NCBI RefSeq assembly: GCF_036226465.1
Contig: NZ_CP108476.1
Coordinates: 5,704,001-5,768,000, forward strand
Direction of reading: 5' to 3'
Origin: Kitasatospora sp. NBC_01250
GTDB lineage: Bacteria; Actinomycetota; Actinomycetes; Streptomycetales; Streptomycetaceae
DNA: 64,000 nucleotides
Position 1 is the first letter of the stretch, and each line of letters begins with the position of its first letter. Position numbers and translations under genes: made by a program. The notes under the pieces were generated by a model, which was given only the letters and a program-made list of their open reading frames with translations, had not been told where the DNA came from and did no database searches. Below, one piece after another: positions 32,755-41,711 of this stretch.

Positions 32755-34716
32755 TCAGGGCCGCGCCGTCGTCAGCCCCACCACCATCCTGTCATCTGCC
32801 GCAACCGGGCCCACCTGGCCGGGAGCCGCCAGCGCGCGCAGCAGGGTGCGGGCGGCTGCGTCGTTCTGCCGGAAGGCCGGGGCGTTGGTGCGCGGGCGGG
32901 CGAAGGCGGCCACGGCACGGCCGTTGGTGTGCGGGCCGAGCGCGAGGCGGCGCGGGTGCGGGGCACCGCCGAGGCCGGGGTCGAGCAGCCGCCCGTCGCG
33001 GGGGTCGACGGTCAGCAGGCCGGAGCGGTGGATGAAGTCCGGGTCGGCGAGCACCTCCTCGGCGAGCCGGCCCTCGCGCAGCAGCTGCGCGAGCACCCGG
33101 TCCTCGGTGCGCGCCAGGTCGTGCCGGGGCAGGTAGGCCTCGATCAGCGCGGTGGCGGTGGTCCGGTGGCCCGGCAGGCTCTCGCTGGCGGCCACGAAGG
33201 TGCCGCTCGCCTCGTCCTCGCTCACGGTCAGGCCGGCGCCCAGGAAGCGGACCACGCCGGCCTCGGAGAGCGCCAGCAGTTCGCGCAGCCGGAAGCCCGG
33301 CGGGCCGGAGGCCAGGAAGCTGAAGAAGCCCTGCCACCAGCCGTCCAGCTCCCGCGCGGTCGAGCGGGCGGTCAGCCGTCCGGCGGCCAGCAGCCGGGGG
33401 AGCTGGCCGTAGAGCGAGAGCAGGGCCAGGAAGGCGCCCAGGTCCGCGCTGTACGCGGGGTCGGCACGGCGGTCGGCGTCCGCCCGGATGTACGCGCGCA
33501 ACTGCTGCTGGAGCTGCTCGGGGTCGGTGAAGCGCAGACCGGCGAGCGGGCGGTCCAGCCGCTCGAAGTCGAGCCGGTCGCCCGGTTCTGGCACCGCGCG
33601 CTCGACCAGGGCCGTCAACTCCGGCTGGTACCAGCCGTACCGGTCGTAGCCGGCCAGGAACTCGGCCCAGGGCAGCGTCGTCCGCTCGGGGTGCGCGTGG
33701 AAGAGCTCGTGGTAGTAGCCGAAGCCGATCTCCTTGGCCATCAACGGCCAGGCGTCCCGGCGCAGTTCGAGCGGTCCGGGGCGGTCGAGCAGCTCCTCGA
33801 CGGCGGCCGGGCCGAAGTAGCGCGGCAGCGGGGCGGGCGGGCCCTGCAGCGGGTAGCCGGTCTTCGAGTGGTAGGGCACTCCGCGCCGCGAGCCGACCAG
33901 CAGCAGCGGTTCGCGGCCCGAGGGGTGGTAGTGCACCCCGCCGTCCGGGCGGTGCTCGAACCGCCCGCCGCGGCCCTCGGTGAGCAGTGCCATCAGGTCG
34001 ACGAAGGCCAGGCCGAAACCGCGCAGGATCACCCGCTCACCCGGGGCGACGGCGGCGACGGCGGCCTCGCAGGAGAAGGCGGGCGGCAGGTGGAAGCGGC
34101 CGTGGCGGCGGGCGAACGCGGCGGTGGCGGCGTGCCGTTCGTCCGGCGCGGAGCCCAGGTGGCCCACGGTCAGCACCACCTGGTCGGCCCGCAGCTCGCG
34201 CCCCGAGGCCAGCGTGATGTGCTGCGGGCCGTCGGCGGGGCCGTGCAGGGCGACGGCCGCCTCGCGGTGCACGGTGAGCCTGATCCGGTCGGGCAGCTGG
34301 GCCGCCGCCCGCCGGAACACCCAGTCCAGGTAGGCGCTCTGGGCCCGCCGGGTGGCGAAGTCGGTGGGCGCCAGGGCGGCCAGCTCGGCCCGCACCGCCG
34401 GGTCGGCCACCGGCCGGTAGGGCGCGAAGGCCGGCTGGTCGGCGGCCCACTCGGCGAGCGAGGGGCCGGGGCGGACCGGTCCCTCGACGACGGAGGTCTC
34501 GTCGGTGAACATCGTGACGTCCGCGGCCATCGAGTTCATCCGCAGCAGCGGCGACTGCCGGTGGCGCCAGATCCGGCCACCGCCGGGCGGCTGCGGGTCG
34601 ATCAGGTGGATCTCCAACTGCTGCTCCGCGGGCAGCAGTTCGCAGGCGCTGGCGGCGATCCGCTCCAGCAGGCCGGTGCCGCGCGGCCCGGCGCCGATGA
34701 TCGCGAGTGCCCTCAT
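32755..34716 (-). CDS. FAD/NAD(P)-binding protein (FAD-NAD(P)-binding Pfam type), 653 aa
   Basis: Begins MRALAIIGAGPRGTGLLERI, a Rossmann GxGPxG dinucleotide site, followed by HLIDPQPPGGGRIWR and QVVLTVGHLGS, typical of the HI0933/FAD-NAD(P)-binding group. Large C-terminal part of unknown role. ATG at 34716 overlaps the permease stop (ATGA). Proteins of this family often neighbour flavin monooxygenase and amino-acid transport genes; here it lies opposite an SsuD-like monooxygenase. Possible role: flavin- or NADPH-dependent oxidation of an imported sulfur or amino compound. Exact reaction unknown. Confidence 0.8.
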   Translation of the reverse strand: MRALAIIGAGPRGTGLLERIAASACELLPAEQQLEIHLIDPQPPGGGRIWRHRQSPLLRMNSMAADVTMFTDETSVVEGPVRPGPSLAEWAADQPAFAPYRPVADPAVRAELAALAPTDFATRRAQSAYLDWVFRRAAAQLPDRIRLTVHREAAVALHGPADGPQHITLASGRELRADQVVLTVGHLGSAPDERHAATAAFARRHGRFHLPPAFSCEAAVAAVAPGERVILRGFGLAFVDLMALLTEGRGGRFEHRPDGGVHYHPSGREPLLLVGSRRGVPYHSKTGYPLQGPPAPLPRYFGPAAVEELLDRPGPLELRRDAWPLMAKEIGFGYYHELFHAHPERTTLPWAEFLAGYDRYGWYQPELTALVERAVPEPGDRLDFERLDRPLAGLRFTDPEQLQQQLRAYIRADADRRADPAYSADLGAFLALLSLYGQLPRLLAAGRLTARSTARELDGWWQGFFSFLASGPPGFRLRELLALSEAGVVRFLGAGLTVSEDEASGTFVAASESLPGHRTTATALIEAYLPRHDLARTEDRVLAQLLREGRLAEEVLADPDFIHRSGLLTVDPRDGRLLDPGLGGAPHPRRLALGPHTNGRAVAAFARPRTNAPAFRQNDAAARTLLRALAAPGQVGPVAADDRMVVGLTTARP

Positions 34717-35738
34717 GCCCGAGCCTCCGGCGCCGGAGGTGCGTCCACCGCGGCGCGCAGCCGCGACAGCCGGGCGCCGAGGCGCCCGAGCGGGGTGGGC
34801 GGCAGCGCGCCGCGGGTCGAGCCGCGGGCGAAGTGCCGCTCCAGGTAGTACTGCAGGACCGACAGCAGGGTGGTCAGCAGCAGGTACCAGAGGGTGGCCA
34901 CCAGCAGCAGCGGGATCACCTGGTAGGTCTGGTTGTAGATCAACTGCACCGAGTAGAGCAGGTCCTGGACGGCGAGCACGCTGACGATGCTGGTGCTCTT
35001 GAGCAGACCGACCAGCATGTTCCCGGCGGTCGGCACGATCGAGCGCATCGCCTGCGGCAGCACGATCCGGCGCATCACCCGCAGCCGGCCCAGGCCCAGC
35101 GACTGGGCGGCCTCCAACTGCCCCTGGTCGACCGAGAGGATGCCGCCGCGCACCACTTCGGCCGCGAAACCGGCCTCCAGCAGGGTCAGTCCGATCACCG
35201 AGGTGAGCACCGGGCCGAACAGGTGCACCGTCCTGACGGTGACGAACTCGGGACCGAACGGGATGCCGAGGCCGAGCGTCGGGTAGAGGGCGCCGAGGTT
35301 GAACCAGAGCAGCAGCTGGACCAGGGGCGGGATCGAACGGAACAACCAGACGTAGCCCCAACTCAGACTCCGCAGAAGCAGGTTGCCCCAGATCCGGGCG
35401 GCGGCCAGCAGGGTGCCGAGGGTGAAGCCGAGCACCATGGTGGCGGCGGTCAGCCAGAGCGTGAGGGTCAGCCCGTGCAGCACCGCGGTGGTGGTCAGGT
35501 AGGAGCCGACCACGTCCCACTGGAAACGCGGGTTGCGCACGACGGAGTCGGCCACCATCGCCAGCACCAGCAGGGCGAGCGCGGTGGTCAGCCACTGCAC
35601 CGGGCGCCGGCGGCGGGCGATCGGGAGCTCGGCGAGCGGAAGTCCGCCGGCGGGGAGTCCGCCGGGCGGGGGCTCATCGGGCGGGGGAGCGGAGGGTGGT
35701 GGGCCGGTGGCGGGCAGGACCTCGTTCGAGGTGGCCAT
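34713..35738 (-). CDS. Polar amino-acid ABC transporter permease, 341 aa
   Basis: HisM-type permease with an N-terminal Pro/Gly-rich tail (about 1-35). Helices include WLTTALALLVLAMVADSVVR and TLTLWLTAATMVLGFTLGTL; SWGYVWLFRSIPPLVQLLLW and the EAA loop EAAQSLGLGRLRVMRRIVLP are standard. ATG at 35738. No ATPase or binding protein accompanies it on this strand, so it probably shares the ATPase at 39962 and the binding proteins of the divergent operon, giving a two-permease importer. Confidence 0.92.
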   Translation of the reverse strand: MATSNEVLPATGPPPSAPPPDEPPPGGLPAGGLPLAELPIARRRRPVQWLTTALALLVLAMVADSVVRNPRFQWDVVGSYLTTTAVLHGLTLTLWLTAATMVLGFTLGTLLAAARIWGNLLLRSLSWGYVWLFRSIPPLVQLLLWFNLGALYPTLGLGIPFGPEFVTVRTVHLFGPVLTSVIGLTLLEAGFAAEVVRGGILSVDQGQLEAAQSLGLGRLRVMRRIVLPQAMRSIVPTAGNMLVGLLKSTSIVSVLAVQDLLYSVQLIYNQTYQVIPLLLVATLWYLLLTTLLSVLQYYLERHFARGSTRGALPPTPLGRLGARLSRLRAAVDAPPAPEARA

Positions 35739-35935
35739 GGGAGGGCTCCAGAGCAGGCGGGCGGGCGATGGGTCGCCGATCACGCGGGCCGCGTCCCTCA
35801 ACGCGGCGGCACTGCTCTGCTCCGTCAACGATCGTACGTGGCACCGGTGAACGGCTGTCAAGGGTGACCGTGCCGCCGGACCGCGGTTCTGGACAGTGGT
35901 TGACGAAGTCCATGACTCACTGTTCAACTGGGCAC

Positions 35936-36013
35936 ATGAACGCCGCCCAGCCCCTGGTCACTCGCGACCACATCGACTTCGGTCGGGTGTGGTCCGCGGC
36001 GTGTCGCGGCTGA
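35936..36013 (+). CDS. Cysteine-type leader peptide (attenuator uORF), 25 aa
   Basis: The peptide MNAAQPLVTRDHIDFGRVWS ends AACRG. The pattern R-x-H-[IV]-D-[LF]-x-R-[VM]-x-S-A-x-C is that of the short putative leader peptides found before sulfur-metabolism genes in Streptomyces. The cysteine codon lies two codons before the stop, where ribosome stalling at low Cys-tRNA would act. It is followed at 36034-36093 by nested stem-loops and then, 400 bases on, by the monooxygenase gene. A TTGACG at 35900-35905 may be a -35 element. An upstream ATG at 35912 is possible but would not change the core. Confidence 0.75.
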   Translation: MNAAQPLVTRDHIDFGRVWSAACRG

Positions 36014-36033
36014 CCCGGCAGCGGGCCGTCTGA

Positions 36034-36093
36034 CCGGCCCGGCGCCGCGTTCCTCGACGCGGCCATCTCCCTCGGTGCCCCTTCCCGGGCCGG
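36034..36093 (+). promoter_or_regulatory. Nested stem-loops following the leader peptide (putative attenuator)
   Basis: Outer arms CCGGCCCGG (36034-36042) and CCGGGCCGG (36085-36093) enclose the hairpin CCGCGT-tcctcg-ACGCGG (36045-36062). The outer arm begins 20 bases after the uORF stop, where a ribosome stalled at the Cys codon could affect folding or Rho access. Confidence 0.4.
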
Positions 36094-36421
36094 GACCTGC
36101 CGTCGGCCGCCGCCACACGCGCACCGCGCACCGTGGAGCCGCCGTCGGCCGCCAGGCGCACGCTGCCGCCGCCCTCGCCAACCGCTGAGGCTGATCGCCC
36201 GCACGCGCCTGCTCCGCGCCTGTGCCCCGCCCGCGCCCGCCGTCCGTCGTTCGCCGCCCCGGAACCGCGCCACCGCGCCGTCCGCGCCACCGTGCCGTCC
36301 GCGCCACCGCACCGTCCGTCCCATCCCGCCGTCCGCCCCGTGCCCCGTGGCCGCCTCCGCGCTGCCCGTCCGCCGCCAGGGGCTCCTGCGGCGTGCCCCA
36401 TCACCTGAGAGGTCGTCAGTC

Positions 36422-37585
36422 ATGCCCGTCGAGTTCCTCGGTATCGCCGCCACCAGTGACGGCTCGGAGACCACCGCCCGCAGCACCGAAGCCTTCGACC
36501 GCGACTACACGCTGCGGCTGGGCCGGGCCCACGAGGAGAACGGCTGGGACCGGGTGCTGTTCGCCTACGGCTCCGGCTCGCCGGACCCGGCGCAGGGCGC
36601 CGCCTTCCTGGCCAGCAAGCTCGACCGGCTGCAGATCCTGCTCGCCCACCGGCCCAACCTCTCCATCCCGACCTTCGCCGCCAAGACCTTCGCCACCCTG
36701 GACCAGATCAGCCAGGGCCGGCTCACCGTCCACTTCATCACCGGCGGCAACGACCACGAGCAGCAGCGCGAGGGCGACTTCCTGACCAAGGACCAGCGCT
36801 ACGACCGCACCCGGGAGTACATCCAGATCGTCAAGCGGGCCTGGACCAGCCACGAGCCCTTCGACCACGAGGGCGAGTACTACCGCTTCAACGACTTCGT
36901 CGCGGACGTCTTCCCCGTCCAGCAGCCGCGCCCCGGCGTCTCGTTCGGCGGCTCCTCGGAAGCGGCGTACGCGGCCGGCGGGGCCGAGGCGGACATCTTC
37001 TGCCTGTGGGGCGAGCCGCTGGCCGAGACCGCGGCGCAGATCGAGCGGGTGCGGCAGGCCGCCGCTGCCGCCGGGCGCACGACCCCGCCGCGGATCCAGG
37101 TGGCGTTCCGGCCGATCATCGCGCCCACCGAGGAGCTGGCCTGGGAGAAGGCGCACCGGACGGTGGAGCGGATCAACGCCCGCAAGGCCGGCGGCGAGCT
37201 GGTCCGGCGCGGCACCGCTGGTGAGGCACCCGAGAACACCGGTTCGCAGCGGCTGATCGCCATCGCCGAGGCGGGCGAGCGCTACGACCGGGCGCTGTGG
37301 ACGCCGACCGCTGCCGCCACCGGCGGGGCCGGCAACTCCAACGCCCTGGTCGGCACCCCCGAGACGGTGGCCCAGGCCCTGCTCGACTACTACGACCTGG
37401 GCGTGGACATCCTCTCGGCGCGCGGCTACCACCTGCTGAACGACGCGATCGACTTCGGCCGCTACGTGATCCCGCTGGTCCGCGAGGAGGTCGCCAGGCG
37501 CGACGCCGCGGTGGCGGCCGAGCGGGCCCGCAAGGCGGCCGAGGCCGAGCGGGACCGCCACCAGCTCATCGCGGTCCAGGCGTGA
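36422..37585 (+). CDS. LLM-class flavin-dependent monooxygenase, SsuD-like, 387 aa
   Basis: Bacterial-luciferase-fold enzyme close to alkanesulfonate monooxygenase: RPNLSIPTFAAKTFATLDQI, SQGRLTVHFITGGNDHEQQR, VSFGGSSEAAYAAGGAEADI, and NSNALVGTPETVAQALLDYY with the flavin- and substrate-binding Gly/Ser segments. Uses FMNH2 and O2, normally to cleave a C-S bond and release sulfite from sulfonates or related thio compounds. ATG at 36422 follows GAGAGG. It leads a six-gene operon, and its stop overlaps the GNAT start (GTGA). The cysteine-type leader upstream supports a sulfur-starvation role. It could alternatively act on S-alkylcysteine derivatives. Confidence 0.88.
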   Translation: MPVEFLGIAATSDGSETTARSTEAFDRDYTLRLGRAHEENGWDRVLFAYGSGSPDPAQGAAFLASKLDRLQILLAHRPNLSIPTFAAKTFATLDQISQGRLTVHFITGGNDHEQQREGDFLTKDQRYDRTREYIQIVKRAWTSHEPFDHEGEYYRFNDFVADVFPVQQPRPGVSFGGSSEAAYAAGGAEADIFCLWGEPLAETAAQIERVRQAAAAAGRTTPPRIQVAFRPIIAPTEELAWEKAHRTVERINARKAGGELVRRGTAGEAPENTGSQRLIAIAEAGERYDRALWTPTAAATGGAGNSNALVGTPETVAQALLDYYDLGVDILSARGYHLLNDAIDFGRYVIPLVREEVARRDAAVAAERARKAAEAERDRHQLIAVQA

Positions 37586-38070
37586 GCCCGGTCCTGACCT
37601 TCCGCGAGGCGGGCCTGGCGGACGAGCTGGCCGAGCCGCTGATCCGCGAGCTGACCGAGGAGTACGTGGCCCGGTACGGCGAGGGGGCGCACGAGGAGAT
37701 GGCCCGCTACCCGGCCGCCGAGTTCGCCCCGCCGCACGGCCTGCTGCTGCTCCTGCTGGCGGACGGCGAACCGGTGGCGGGCGGTGCCTTCCGCCGCTAC
37801 GACGAGTCGAGCGCCGAGCTCAAGCGGATGTGGACGCACTCCGCGCACCGCCGCCGCGGCCTGGCCCGCCGGGTGCTGGGCGAGCTGGAGCAGCGCGCCC
37901 GCCTCGCCGGCTACCGGCGGATCTTCCTGACCACCGGGCCGCGCCAGCCCGAGGCCAAGGGTCTCTATCTGGCGGCCGGCTACACCCCGCTCTTCGTGGA
38001 GGGCGAGCCCGCGACCCCGGGCCCGCTGCCCTTCGAGAAGTTCCTGAACCGAGAGGCACGAACCCCGTGA
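37582..38070 (+). CDS. GNAT family N-acetyltransferase, 162 aa
   Basis: GNAT domain: [40 protein letters not shown], acetyl-CoA loop [20 protein letters not shown], and [23 protein letters not shown] at 37582 overlaps the monooxygenase stop, and its own stop overlaps the binding-protein start, both by four bases, so stoichiometry is tight. Position between a monooxygenase and an amino-acid importer recalls SnaA/SnaB of Bacillus, which N-acetylate S-alkylcysteines before oxidation. That role is inferred here. Confidence 0.85.
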
Positions 38071-38999
38071 GACCCCGCACCGCCGCCCTCGCCGTCGCCC
38101 TGCTGCCGCTGCTCGCGCTCACCGCCTGCGGCTCCGGCAGCAGCGGCGCCACGGCCCGGCCGGCCGCCCAGGGGGTGGACCCGAACCGCGACGTGGTCTC
38201 CCAGGAGCAGAAGGTCGACGCGATCGCCGCCCTGCTGCCCGCCGACGTCCGCCAGGGCGGCACGCTCAAGGTCGGCAGCTCCTTCGGCACCCCGCCCAGC
38301 GCCTACTACCCCGACCCGGCGACCAAGAAGCCGGCCGGCCTGGACGTGGACGTCACCGACGCCGTCGCCCGGGTGCTGGGCCTGAAGGTGGACCGCGAGG
38401 ACGCCGCCTTCGAGACCATTCTGCCCGCGCTCGGCAGCGGCAAGTACGACGTGGGCACCGGCAACTTCGGCGTCACCACGGCCCGGCTGAAGACCATCGA
38501 CTTCGTCACCTACATCGACGACGGCCAGGGCTTCGCCGTCCGCAAGGACAACACCGCGCTGACCGACGTCACCCAGCTCACCCAGCTGTGCGGGCTGACC
38601 ATCGGCACCGGCGCCGGCACCACCTTCGAGACCACGCTCAACACGCAGAAGCACCTGTGCACCGACGCCGGCAAGAAGCCGTACACCGTGCAGTCCTTCT
38701 CCGAGAACGGCGCGATCCTGACCAGCCTCCAGCAGGGCCGGATCGACGCGGTGATGTCCACCATCAACGGCCTGCGCTACCAGGCCGCCCAGCCGGCCGC
38801 CGGGACGAAGTTCGTCGGCGAGTTCCACCGCCTGGACGTCGGCTTCGCGTTCAAGAAGGGCAGCCCGCTGACCCCGGCCTTCCAGGCGGCGGTCAACCAG
38901 CTGATCAAGGACGGCACCTACCAGCGGATCCTGGACAAGTGGGGCACCGGCGGCTCGGCCATCACCCAGTCGCAGATCAGCCCGCCCGAGCACACGTGA
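38067..38999 (+). CDS. ABC transporter substrate-binding lipoprotein, 310 aa
   Basis: Starts [20 protein letters not shown] then lipobox Cys (LTAC, about residue 21). SBP_bac_3 domain: [58 protein letters not shown]. Two extra Cys in the second half ([10 protein letters not shown] and HLCTDAG) could form a disulfide. GTG at 38067, coupled to the GNAT gene. Binds an unidentified small amino-acid-like compound for the downstream permease. Confidence 0.92.
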
Positions 39000-39038: not shown

Positions 39039-39965
39039 GTGAGCCTCACCCTGCGCCGGGCCGCGGCCCCGCCCGGCTCCGACGCCGATCCCGCCACCCT
39101 GCCGGTGCGGCCGGCCCGGCATCCCGGGCGCTGGCTGGCCGCCCTGCTCGCCCTGCTGCTGGTCGGCCAGTTCGTCCACGGGCTGGCCGTCAACCCCGGC
39201 TGGGACTGGCCGACCTTCGCCCGCTACCTGACCACGCCGTCCATCCTGCGCGCGGTCGGCACCACCCTCGAACTCACCGCCTACGGCACCGTGCTGGGCT
39301 TCGCCCTCGGCGTCGTGGTGGCCTTCGGGCGGCTGTCGGGCAGTCTGGTGCTGCAGAGCATCGCCTGGACCTACACCTGGGTCTTCCGGTCGATCCCGCT
39401 CATCGTCCAGCTGGTCTTCTGGTTCAACATCTCCTACCTCTACCAACACCTGGCGCTGGGCGTGCCGTTCGGCCCCGAGCTGTGGTCCTTCCGGACCGTC
39501 GACGTGCTCAGCGCGCAGGGCGCGGCCGTGCTGGGGCTGGCGCTCTACCAGAGCGCGTACGCGGCCGAGGTGGTGCGCGCCGGGGTGATCGCGATCGAGG
39601 CCGGGCAGTTCGAGGCCGCCGCCGCGCTGGGCATCCCGCGGCTGCGCCAGATCCGCCGGATCGTGCTGCCGCAGGCGATGCGCTCCATCCTGCCGAACGC
39701 CGCCAACCAGGTGATCGCGCTGCTCAAGAGCACCTCGGTGGTCTACGTGATGGCGATCGGCGAACTCTTCTACCAGGTCCAGGTGGTCTACGGGCGCAAC
39801 GGCCGGGTGGTGCCGCTGCTGATGGTGGCCACCGTCTGGTACGTGCTGCTGACCACCGTGCTCTCCGTCCTGCAGTACTACGTGGAACGGCACTTCGCCC
39901 GCGGCGCGCAGCGCACCGCGGCGCCGACGCCCCTGCACCGTCTGATCCGAAGGGTCCAGTCATGA
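39039..39965 (+). CDS. Polar amino-acid ABC transporter permease, 308 aa
   Basis: HisM-type permease: N-terminal helix [20 protein letters not shown], then [40 protein letters not shown], and EAA loop [20 protein letters not shown]. The tail [20 protein letters not shown] is common to the family. GTG at 39039 after AGGAG. It shares the RHPGRW motif with the permease at 4754, pointing to duplication within this chromosome region. Stop overlaps the ATPase start (ATGA). Confidence 0.94.
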
Positions 39966-40742: not shown

Positions 40743-41711
40743 ATGACCCGCACCCGCCTGCCCCGCCTGCTGCTCGCGCTCACCGCCGCCCTGGCTCTGG
40801 CCGGCTGCGCCAGCGCCACCGCCGATCCCGGCCCGGCCGCCGCCGCCGGCACGGGCACAGGCATCAACCTGACGCCCCAGCAGAACCGGATCAGCACCCC
40901 GAAGGTGGATTCGATCGCCGCGCTGGTCCCCGCGGACGTGCGCGCCCACGGCACCCTGGAGGTGGTCGACTCCCTCGGTACCGTCCCGCCGCTGGACTTC
41001 TACGCCACCGACGACAAGACCGTGATCGGCGCCGAACCCGACCTCGCCACCCTGGTGGCCGACGTCCTCGGCCTCAAGGTGCAGTTCCACCCCGAGAGCT
41101 GGGAGAACGTCTTCGTCGGCCTGGACAGCGGCAAGTACGACGTCGGCTTCACCAACATCACGGTGACCGAGACCCGCAAGGAGAAGTACGACTTCGCCAC
41201 CTACCGGCTGGACAACCTGGCCTTCGAGGCCAAGAAGGGCGCCGACTGGAAGGTCACCGGTCCCAGGGACGTGGCCGGCCGCACCATCGGCGTCTCCTCC
41301 GGCACCAACCAGGAGAAGCTGCTGCTGGACTGGAGCGCCCAGGACGTGGCGGCCGGCCTCAAGCCGGTGAAGATCGCCTACTACCAGAACTCCTCGGACT
41401 ACTACCTGGCGCTCGGCTCGGGCCGGATCGACGCCTGGGTCGGGCCCAACCCGACCAGCGCCTTCCACGCCGCGCAGACCGGGCAGACCCAGGTGATCGG
41501 CACCTACTCGGGTGCCGGGGCGAGTCTGCAGGGCAAGATCGCGGCCACCGTCAAGAAGGGCAACCCGCTGATCACCGCGGTCCAGGCGGCGCTCGACGAG
41601 GTGATCAGGAACGGGACGTACGGGCAGGTGCTGCAGCGCTGGGGGCTGTCGAACGAGGCGGTGCCGAGCTCCGAGCTCAACCCGCCGGGCCTGCCGAAGT
41701 CCGACGGCTAG
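40743..41711 (+). CDS. Second ABC transporter substrate-binding lipoprotein, 322 aa
   Basis: Signal MTRTRLPRLLLALTAALALA then lipobox Cys (LAGC). SBP_bac_3 domain: ALVPADVRAHGTLEVVDSLG, IGAEPDLATLVADVLGLKVQ, GKYDVGFTNITVTETRKEKY, RIDAWVGPNPTSAF. Clearly a paralogue of the protein at 38067 but divergent, so it may widen or shift substrate range. Last gene of the operon, 13 bases after the ATPase, ATG with GAGAGGAG upstream. Confidence 0.92.
   Translation: MTRTRLPRLLLALTAALALAGCASATADPGPAAAAGTGTGINLTPQQNRISTPKVDSIAALVPADVRAHGTLEVVDSLGTVPPLDFYATDDKTVIGAEPDLATLVADVLGLKVQFHPESWENVFVGLDSGKYDVGFTNITVTETRKEKYDFATYRLDNLAFEAKKGADWKVTGPRDVAGRTIGVSSGTNQEKLLLDWSAQDVAAGLKPVKIAYYQNSSDYYLALGSGRIDAWVGPNPTSAFHAAQTGQTQVIGTYSGAGASLQGKIAATVKKGNPLITAVQAALDEVIRNGTYGQVLQRWGLSNEAVPSSELNPPGLPKSDG

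Follow-up and report, generated by a model that had tools for sequence, protein, structure and literature searches.

We consider it fairly likely that the short open reading frame (ORF) ahead of a sulfur operon in Kitasatospora sp. NBC_01250 is a cysteine-responsive leader-peptide attenuator, in which stalling at a UGU codon under limiting Cys-tRNA relieves polarity, probably exerted by Rho, within a long leader. The mini-gene very probably lets ribosomes sense cysteine shortage. The sensor part of this reading is well supported; the read-out part is what we infer. The window is the whole 64,000-nt stretch of DNA that was analysed, and the features on which the argument draws are as follows.

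35900..35935 (+): promoter, with TTGACG at 35900-35905, an 18-nt spacer and the -10 element TCAACT at 35924-35929
35936..36013 (+): leader ORF MNAAQPLVTRDHIDFGRVWSAACRG, ATG to TGA, 25 codons, matching NF042936 below its cut-off (E 2.2e-6)
35967..35993 (+): H1, a hairpin inside the ORF with a cUUCGg tetraloop, from the consensus fold of 78 orthologs
36002..36004 (+): control codon UGU (Cys-23), nine residues past the Asp of the HID motif and three codons before the stop
36014..36421 (+): 408-nt spacer, a candidate Rho loading region, C 50% and G 31%, with no obvious gene
36023..36040 (+): H2, the post-stop hairpin GGGCCG-UCUGAC-CGGCCC from local folds, stem 36023-36028 with 36035-36040
36044..36063 (+): H3, the hairpin GCCGCGU-UCCUCG-ACGCGGC, stem 36044-36050 with 36057-36063
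36067..36076 (+): conserved CTCCCTCGGT element (as CTCCCTCGG) after H2 and H3, from spacer comparison
36422..37585 (+): LLM-class flavin monooxygenase, alkanesulfonate monooxygenase (SsuD)-like, first structural gene (Bac_luciferase, E 8e-64)
37594..38070 (+): GNAT-family acetyltransferase, approximate start (PF00583, E 3.7e-16)
38055..38999 (+): family 3 solute-binding protein of a cystine-type ABC importer, approximate start (PF00497, E 4e-27)
39039..39965 (+): ABC importer permease, best match cystine permease (NF011680, E 1.6e-36, under cut-off)
40743..41711 (+): second family 3 solute-binding protein (NF008426, E 3.2e-29, under cut-off)

The sequence-only reading had described a 25-codon upstream ORF ending in VWSAACRG after an RDHIDFGR core, and the ORF at 35936-36013 is as claimed. 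Upstream of it, the weak -10 element is preceded by TG and ends 6 nt before the leader ATG. Counted from the first T of TTGACG, the leader ATG begins after 36 nt in the window and after 36-37 nt in nearly all orthologs; on this geometry the transcript is predicted to be leaderless, probably starting at or next to the leader ATG. The leaderless start typical of Cys-responsive leaderless sORF attenuators is thus predicted here from promoter geometry. Cystine-type ABC permease genes at 34713-35738 (-) and 39039-39965 (+) belong to divergent operons on either side of the leader promoter. The palindrome GCCGCGTCCCTCAACGCGGC at 35788-35807, which lies between these operons, was kept in most ortholog loci, including those of Lentzea that have no leader peptide. 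It is possibly an operator, or else belongs to the region where the divergent gene starts; a role as the operator of a regulon was rejected, the exact core being matched once in the genome.

Orthologous loci were gathered via the LLM gene from relatives and from named genomes (Streptomyces, Kitasatospora, Saccharothrix, Umezawaea, and Lentzea). In these loci, the peptide core recurred upstream of the LLM/SsuD-like gene in 95 of 110 loci, giving 82 unique sequences. Because the same core precedes the LLM ortholog so regularly, the leader is, by this comparison, not a chance ORF. The core, LV[TS]R-[DG]-HIDFGRVWSA[AS]C, was near-invariant and the N-terminus variable, and the distance from leader to gene ranged from 85 to about 450 nt. 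No leader was found in 13 Lentzea-type loci among the 110 (L069, L077-L080, L083, L088, L092, L124, which is named Nocardia, L128, L132, L137, and L142), and the remaining two loci, L040 and L110, were cut by contig ends. The leader is therefore dispensable for the operon, which counts against the attenuator reading. One Lentzea-type locus, L069, retained a GCGC-CTCCCTCA-ACGCGC hairpin near the LLM gene.

The control cysteine was conserved down to its codon. The Cys at position -3, close to the stop, was TGT in all 82 unique orthologous leaders; the next Cys, where it occurs, was TGC in 43 of 44, and the Cys codon of the downstream LLM genes was TGC in 91 of 91. Among 56 unique paralogous leaders, which precede other operons, the Cys nine residues past the Asp was always TGT (56/56), the Cys two past the Asp was TGC in 19 of 21, and the remaining Cys codons were TGC in 36 of 56. 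An additional sample gave TGT at the control Cys in 26 of 26 leaders and one leader with Gly instead; in all these counts the sequences are related and do not represent independent events. By comparison, the TGT share of all Cys codons was 6.8% for the window (8 of 117) and 12.5% for a set of 80 ortholog loci (55 of 439). Protein models cannot pick a codon, so the UGU result is not circular. In 43 diverse leaders, the L, R, H, D, L, and R of LxxRxH[VI]DLxR were kept as amino acids with free use of synonymous codons; with the Cys fixed as UGU, this indicates conservation of the motif at the peptide level and of the Cys at the codon level. Runs of several Cys codons were not seen in the window leader, which has one Cys, and orthologs have one to four. 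In L231 (G199:C1:2015500-2015850), Gly replaces the control Cys (LASAMGAPRRG); this leader is perhaps a decayed copy.

Bacteria are generally held to decode both Cys codons with a single tRNA. Reading of UGU by tRNA-Cys(GCA) through a wobble pair only could make a single codon a sensitive sensor, and the conserved HxDLxR nascent chain may add to that sensitivity. A stronger version, to which we give rather little weight, is that the conserved LxxRxH[VI]DLxR chain holds the ribosome over one fixed UGU whose wobble U is essential, and that decoding of UGU by tRNA-Cys(GCA) perhaps needs a sulfur-containing tRNA modification, so that one codon would read both Cys charging and sulfur status. Tuning of attenuators by codon choice has been described, with an argument that rests on several isoacceptors (Elf and Ehrenberg 2005, PMC1183508). 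Our literature search, in which subscription papers were mostly outside the coverage and which is weak evidence in this respect, returned no paper on UGU in Cys leaders.

With the NCBIfam models NF042936 and NF042934, 11 convincing leaders were identified in the 9.0-Mb genome to which the window belongs, most of them ahead of sulfur genes. The products encoded next to them are the LLM enzyme, sulfite reductase (with a CysH-like ORF behind its gene), cysteine synthase, SsuE FMN reductase (scoring over the cut-off of its model), rhodanese, an SfnB-like enzyme, arylsulfotransferase, a family 3 binding protein, 2OG oxygenase, cysteine dioxygenase, and one protein without assignment. Such leaders were present in 41 of 41 Streptomycetales genomes sampled, at one to about a dozen per genome; an even draw across the phylum yielded few matches outside Streptomycetales, multi-Cys leaders of the Ms4527A type among them. 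In relatives, the HIDFGRVWS leader with its internal hairpin was also seen ahead of another LLM monooxygenase operon, the gene of an ABC binding protein, and others (L241-L252), and in the DLCRVWS form within this set the upper half of the ORF-internal hairpin was missing. At G000:C1:2253722 (L032), a paralogous leader that carries UGU stands ahead of a cysteine dioxygenase gene. Because cysteine dioxygenase degrades Cys, this leader misfits simple induction by Cys shortage.

The LLM gene, placed by the sequence-only reading about 400 bases downstream, starts at 36422, 408 nt past the leader stop, behind the ribosome-binding site (RBS) GAGAGG; it matched TIGR03565 with an E value of 8e-60, yet under the cut-off of that model. 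The binding protein at 38055..38999 matched the cystine-binding model NF008426 (E 2.7e-20), also under cut-off, and the cystine-binding protein was among the best importer matches of the protein at 40743..41711. Sulfur genes therefore stand downstream of the window leader, as an SsuD-like LLM and a cystine-type importer, and downstream of its paralogs, as sulfite reductase, cysteine synthase, and SsuE. The proposal of a Cys-type leader before a sulfur operon was thus strongly supported by the family resemblance, the 11 copies in this one genome, the sulfur genes downstream, the leaderless geometry, and the frozen Cys codon.

The RNA around the control codon carries structure of uneven conservation. 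H1, which the sequence-only reading had missed, is marked by codon choice: its Gly is GGT in 75 of 76 sequences (background 8%), its Val is GTG in 82 of 82 (background 33%), and its Arg is CGG or CGA in 79 of 82, though CGC is the commonest Arg codon. The third base of this Arg codon, G or A, pairs with U or is bulged. In a synonymous-shuffle test, at most 2.6% of the variants folded equally well in 11 of 15 sequences. Because the H1 pairs are mostly invariant, the support for H1 comes from synonymous choice and not from covariation. As a general trait of the leader family, H1 was rejected, the paralogs giving a shuffle median of 0.49 with 1 of 56 below 0.05. H1 is accordingly a feature of the HIDFGRVWS subtype that paralogs lack, and most synonymous variants fold less stably. 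We also rejected the idea that H1 makes RNA polymerase pause near UGU; such a pause fits the his-type spacing poorly and leaves the UGU of leaders that lack H1 unexplained.

H2 lies 9 nt past the stop. Among orthologs, 94.7% of the alignment cells were paired at its positions, and both sides had changed in a compensatory manner in three of the six pairs. At the position of H3, Kitasatospora loci keep the place and not the sequence, and other hairpins stand there; H3 also repeats, imperfectly, the palindrome of 35788-35807. The CTCCCTCGGT/CTCCCTCGG element was found at most 150 nt from the stop in 64 of 85 unique spacers, compared with 2 occurrences in 11.8 kb of more distal spacer. A 156-nt fold was mildly better than shuffled sequence (z -1.74). 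The sequence-only reading had drawn two nested stem-loops here: the inner stem, which is H3, is real in the window, whereas the outer stem, 36034-36042 with 36085-36093, which competes with H2 for bases, could not be established, and the exact nested fold is only partly conserved. At the Rfam gathering threshold the sole match was tRNA, and sub-threshold matches in three ortholog loci were noise.

The spacer between leader and operon is unusual in composition. Its peak of C minus G ranked in the top 0.02% of 78-nt windows over both strands of the whole stretch. The mean value was 0.18 for 83 spacers versus 0.04 for 24 codirectional gaps and 0.08 for 27 divergent gaps, and 82% of spacers reached at least 0.15 versus 7-8% of the control gaps, a small control set of 51 gaps with crude gene calls; 10 of the 11 leaders in the same genome reached at least 0.13. 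The leader is thus followed by a C-rich, G-poor untranslated stretch, as in Rho attenuators, and its composition is suggestive of a Rho loading region. No intrinsic terminator, that is, a G+C-rich stem with a U-tract, was found at 35700-36500. Rho has been suggested for the mycobacterial cys leaders (Seliverstov et al. 2005, PMC1262725).

Both a translational and a Rho-linked read-out had been entertained in the sequence-only reading. By the translational route, as in the mycobacterial poly-Cys sORFs, mRNA structure would hide the RBS of the first gene unless a ribosome stalls in the leader. Translational attenuation is the mechanism reported for the closest relatives that have been studied by experiment (Canestrari 2020, cited in PMC13236596 and PMC9094748), and in the folds the RBS region was paired at a mean probability of 0.54. 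However, over 45 orthologs the RBS paired with the leader ORF at a mean probability of 0.09 and with the first 60 post-stop nt at 0.10, in a long GC-rich RNA that folds unreliably, and the wide range of spacer lengths also speaks against such masking. With so little pairing to either of these parts, masking of the RBS by the leader found no support in these folds, and we regard this route as quite unlikely. The Rho-linked route is favoured as the more probable one by the C-rich, G-poor spacer and the lack of intrinsic terminators.

Classical attenuation by exclusive stems would instead let segment 2 (GGGCCG) pair with segment 3 (CCGGCCC) as H2 while a ribosome waits at UGU, and segment 3 pair with segment 4 (GGGCCGG) once a ribosome on the stop codon covers segment 2, the 3:4 stem terminating without a U-tract. 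A downstream complement of at least 6 nt to the 3' arm of H2 was present in most of 72 unique spacers and often beat shuffled sequence (median p 0.08), the stem 36034-36042/36085-36093 occurs in the 156-nt fold of the window, and usual footprints would put a stop-codon ribosome on segment 2 and a UGU ribosome off it. We nevertheless hold this scheme to be unlikely: such matches come easily in GC-rich sequence, H2 is changed in L094 and L136 with no matching change in segment 4, segment 4 may equally form a local hairpin with CUCGG, and there is no U-tract. As for the sensor, a nascent-chain arrest peptide could respond to something besides Cys-tRNA, for example a sulfur metabolite, with the Cys lying within the arrest motif; retention of LxxRxH[VI]DLxR as amino acids, at a fixed distance to the Cys, in the 43 diverse leaders would suit it. 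Conservation down to the UGU codon, however, argues for decoding rather than the side chain, and Cys-rich relatives are reported to respond to Cys limitation (Canestrari 2020, cited in PMC13236596), so that an arrest peptide of this kind appears very unlikely.

According to the preferred reading, Cys-dependent stalling coupled to polarity, a ribosome supplied with ample Cys-tRNA would complete the leader and be released at UGA, leaving several hundred nucleotides of C-rich RNA naked, on which Rho (or a terminator that needs no U-tract) would halt transcription before the operon. Under a shortage of Cys-tRNA, it would wait at UGU, opening H1 and leaving H2 free to form, and would remain close to RNA polymerase; termination would thereby be relieved, and the sulfonate- and cystine-scavenging genes would be switched on. 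The least secure step in this scheme is how the spacer would be protected while the ribosome waits, for a ribosome at UGU has no obvious reach over the C-rich region.

Cysteine-responsive leader peptides of actinobacteria are already known. Three features appear to be new as far as the searchable literature goes, although some of this may be known: the position-specific UGU, H1 in the HIDFGRVWS subtype, and conservation of H2 together with a C-rich spacer. Attenuation in Streptomyces has so far given ambiguous results, and cys leaders of Streptomyces were not reported in the same study (Seliverstov et al. 2005, PMC1262725). With this leader, control that is coupled to the ribosome and possibly depends on Rho becomes approachable in Streptomyces. 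A rare UGU at the control Cys of every sampled leader that has a Cys there, with neighbours that are mostly UGC, makes a strong and cheaply testable prediction on single-codon amino-acid sensing.

In the E. coli tnaC and trpL systems, the position of a ribosome on a short ORF decides downstream transcription, through a rut-like region in tnaC and alternative stems in trpL. The window leader has the ribosome-position principle in common with both, and differs in its Cys input, leaderless start, lack of a U-tract terminator, and very long spacer. Also comparable are the cys leaders of Mycobacterium, Propionibacterium, and Bifidobacterium, which have Cys codons without terminators and for which Rho-dependent attenuation was suggested; they carry runs of Cys codons, whereas the window leader has a single fixed UGU (Seliverstov et al. 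2005, PMC1262725). The mycobacterial poly-cysteine leaderless sORF attenuators (Canestrari et al. 2020; Shell et al. 2015, PMC4633059, a precedent for the preferred reading) are reported to be alike in the leaderless short ORF, the Cys codons near the stop, the sulfur operons downstream, and the several independent copies per genome. In contrast to them, the window leader has one Cys (UGU), H1, and a 408-nt C-rich spacer, and the predicted folds gave no sign that the leader masks the RBS. Two NCBIfam families, NF042936 ("Ms4527A family Cys-rich leader peptide") and the cis_reg_atten family NF042934 ("putative leader peptide"), display the same LxxRxH[VI]D[LF]xR...C pattern. Because the window peptide scored 27.1 bits in hmmscan against NF042936 over residues 6-24, under the curated cut-off of 45 bits, and had no listed match to NF042934 (cut-off 27 bits), which four other leaders of the same genome pass, it was filed as a relative and not as a member. 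The window leader is thus a variant of the known actinobacterial cysteine attenuators represented by Ms4527A, NF042934, and the mycobacterial poly-Cys sORFs.
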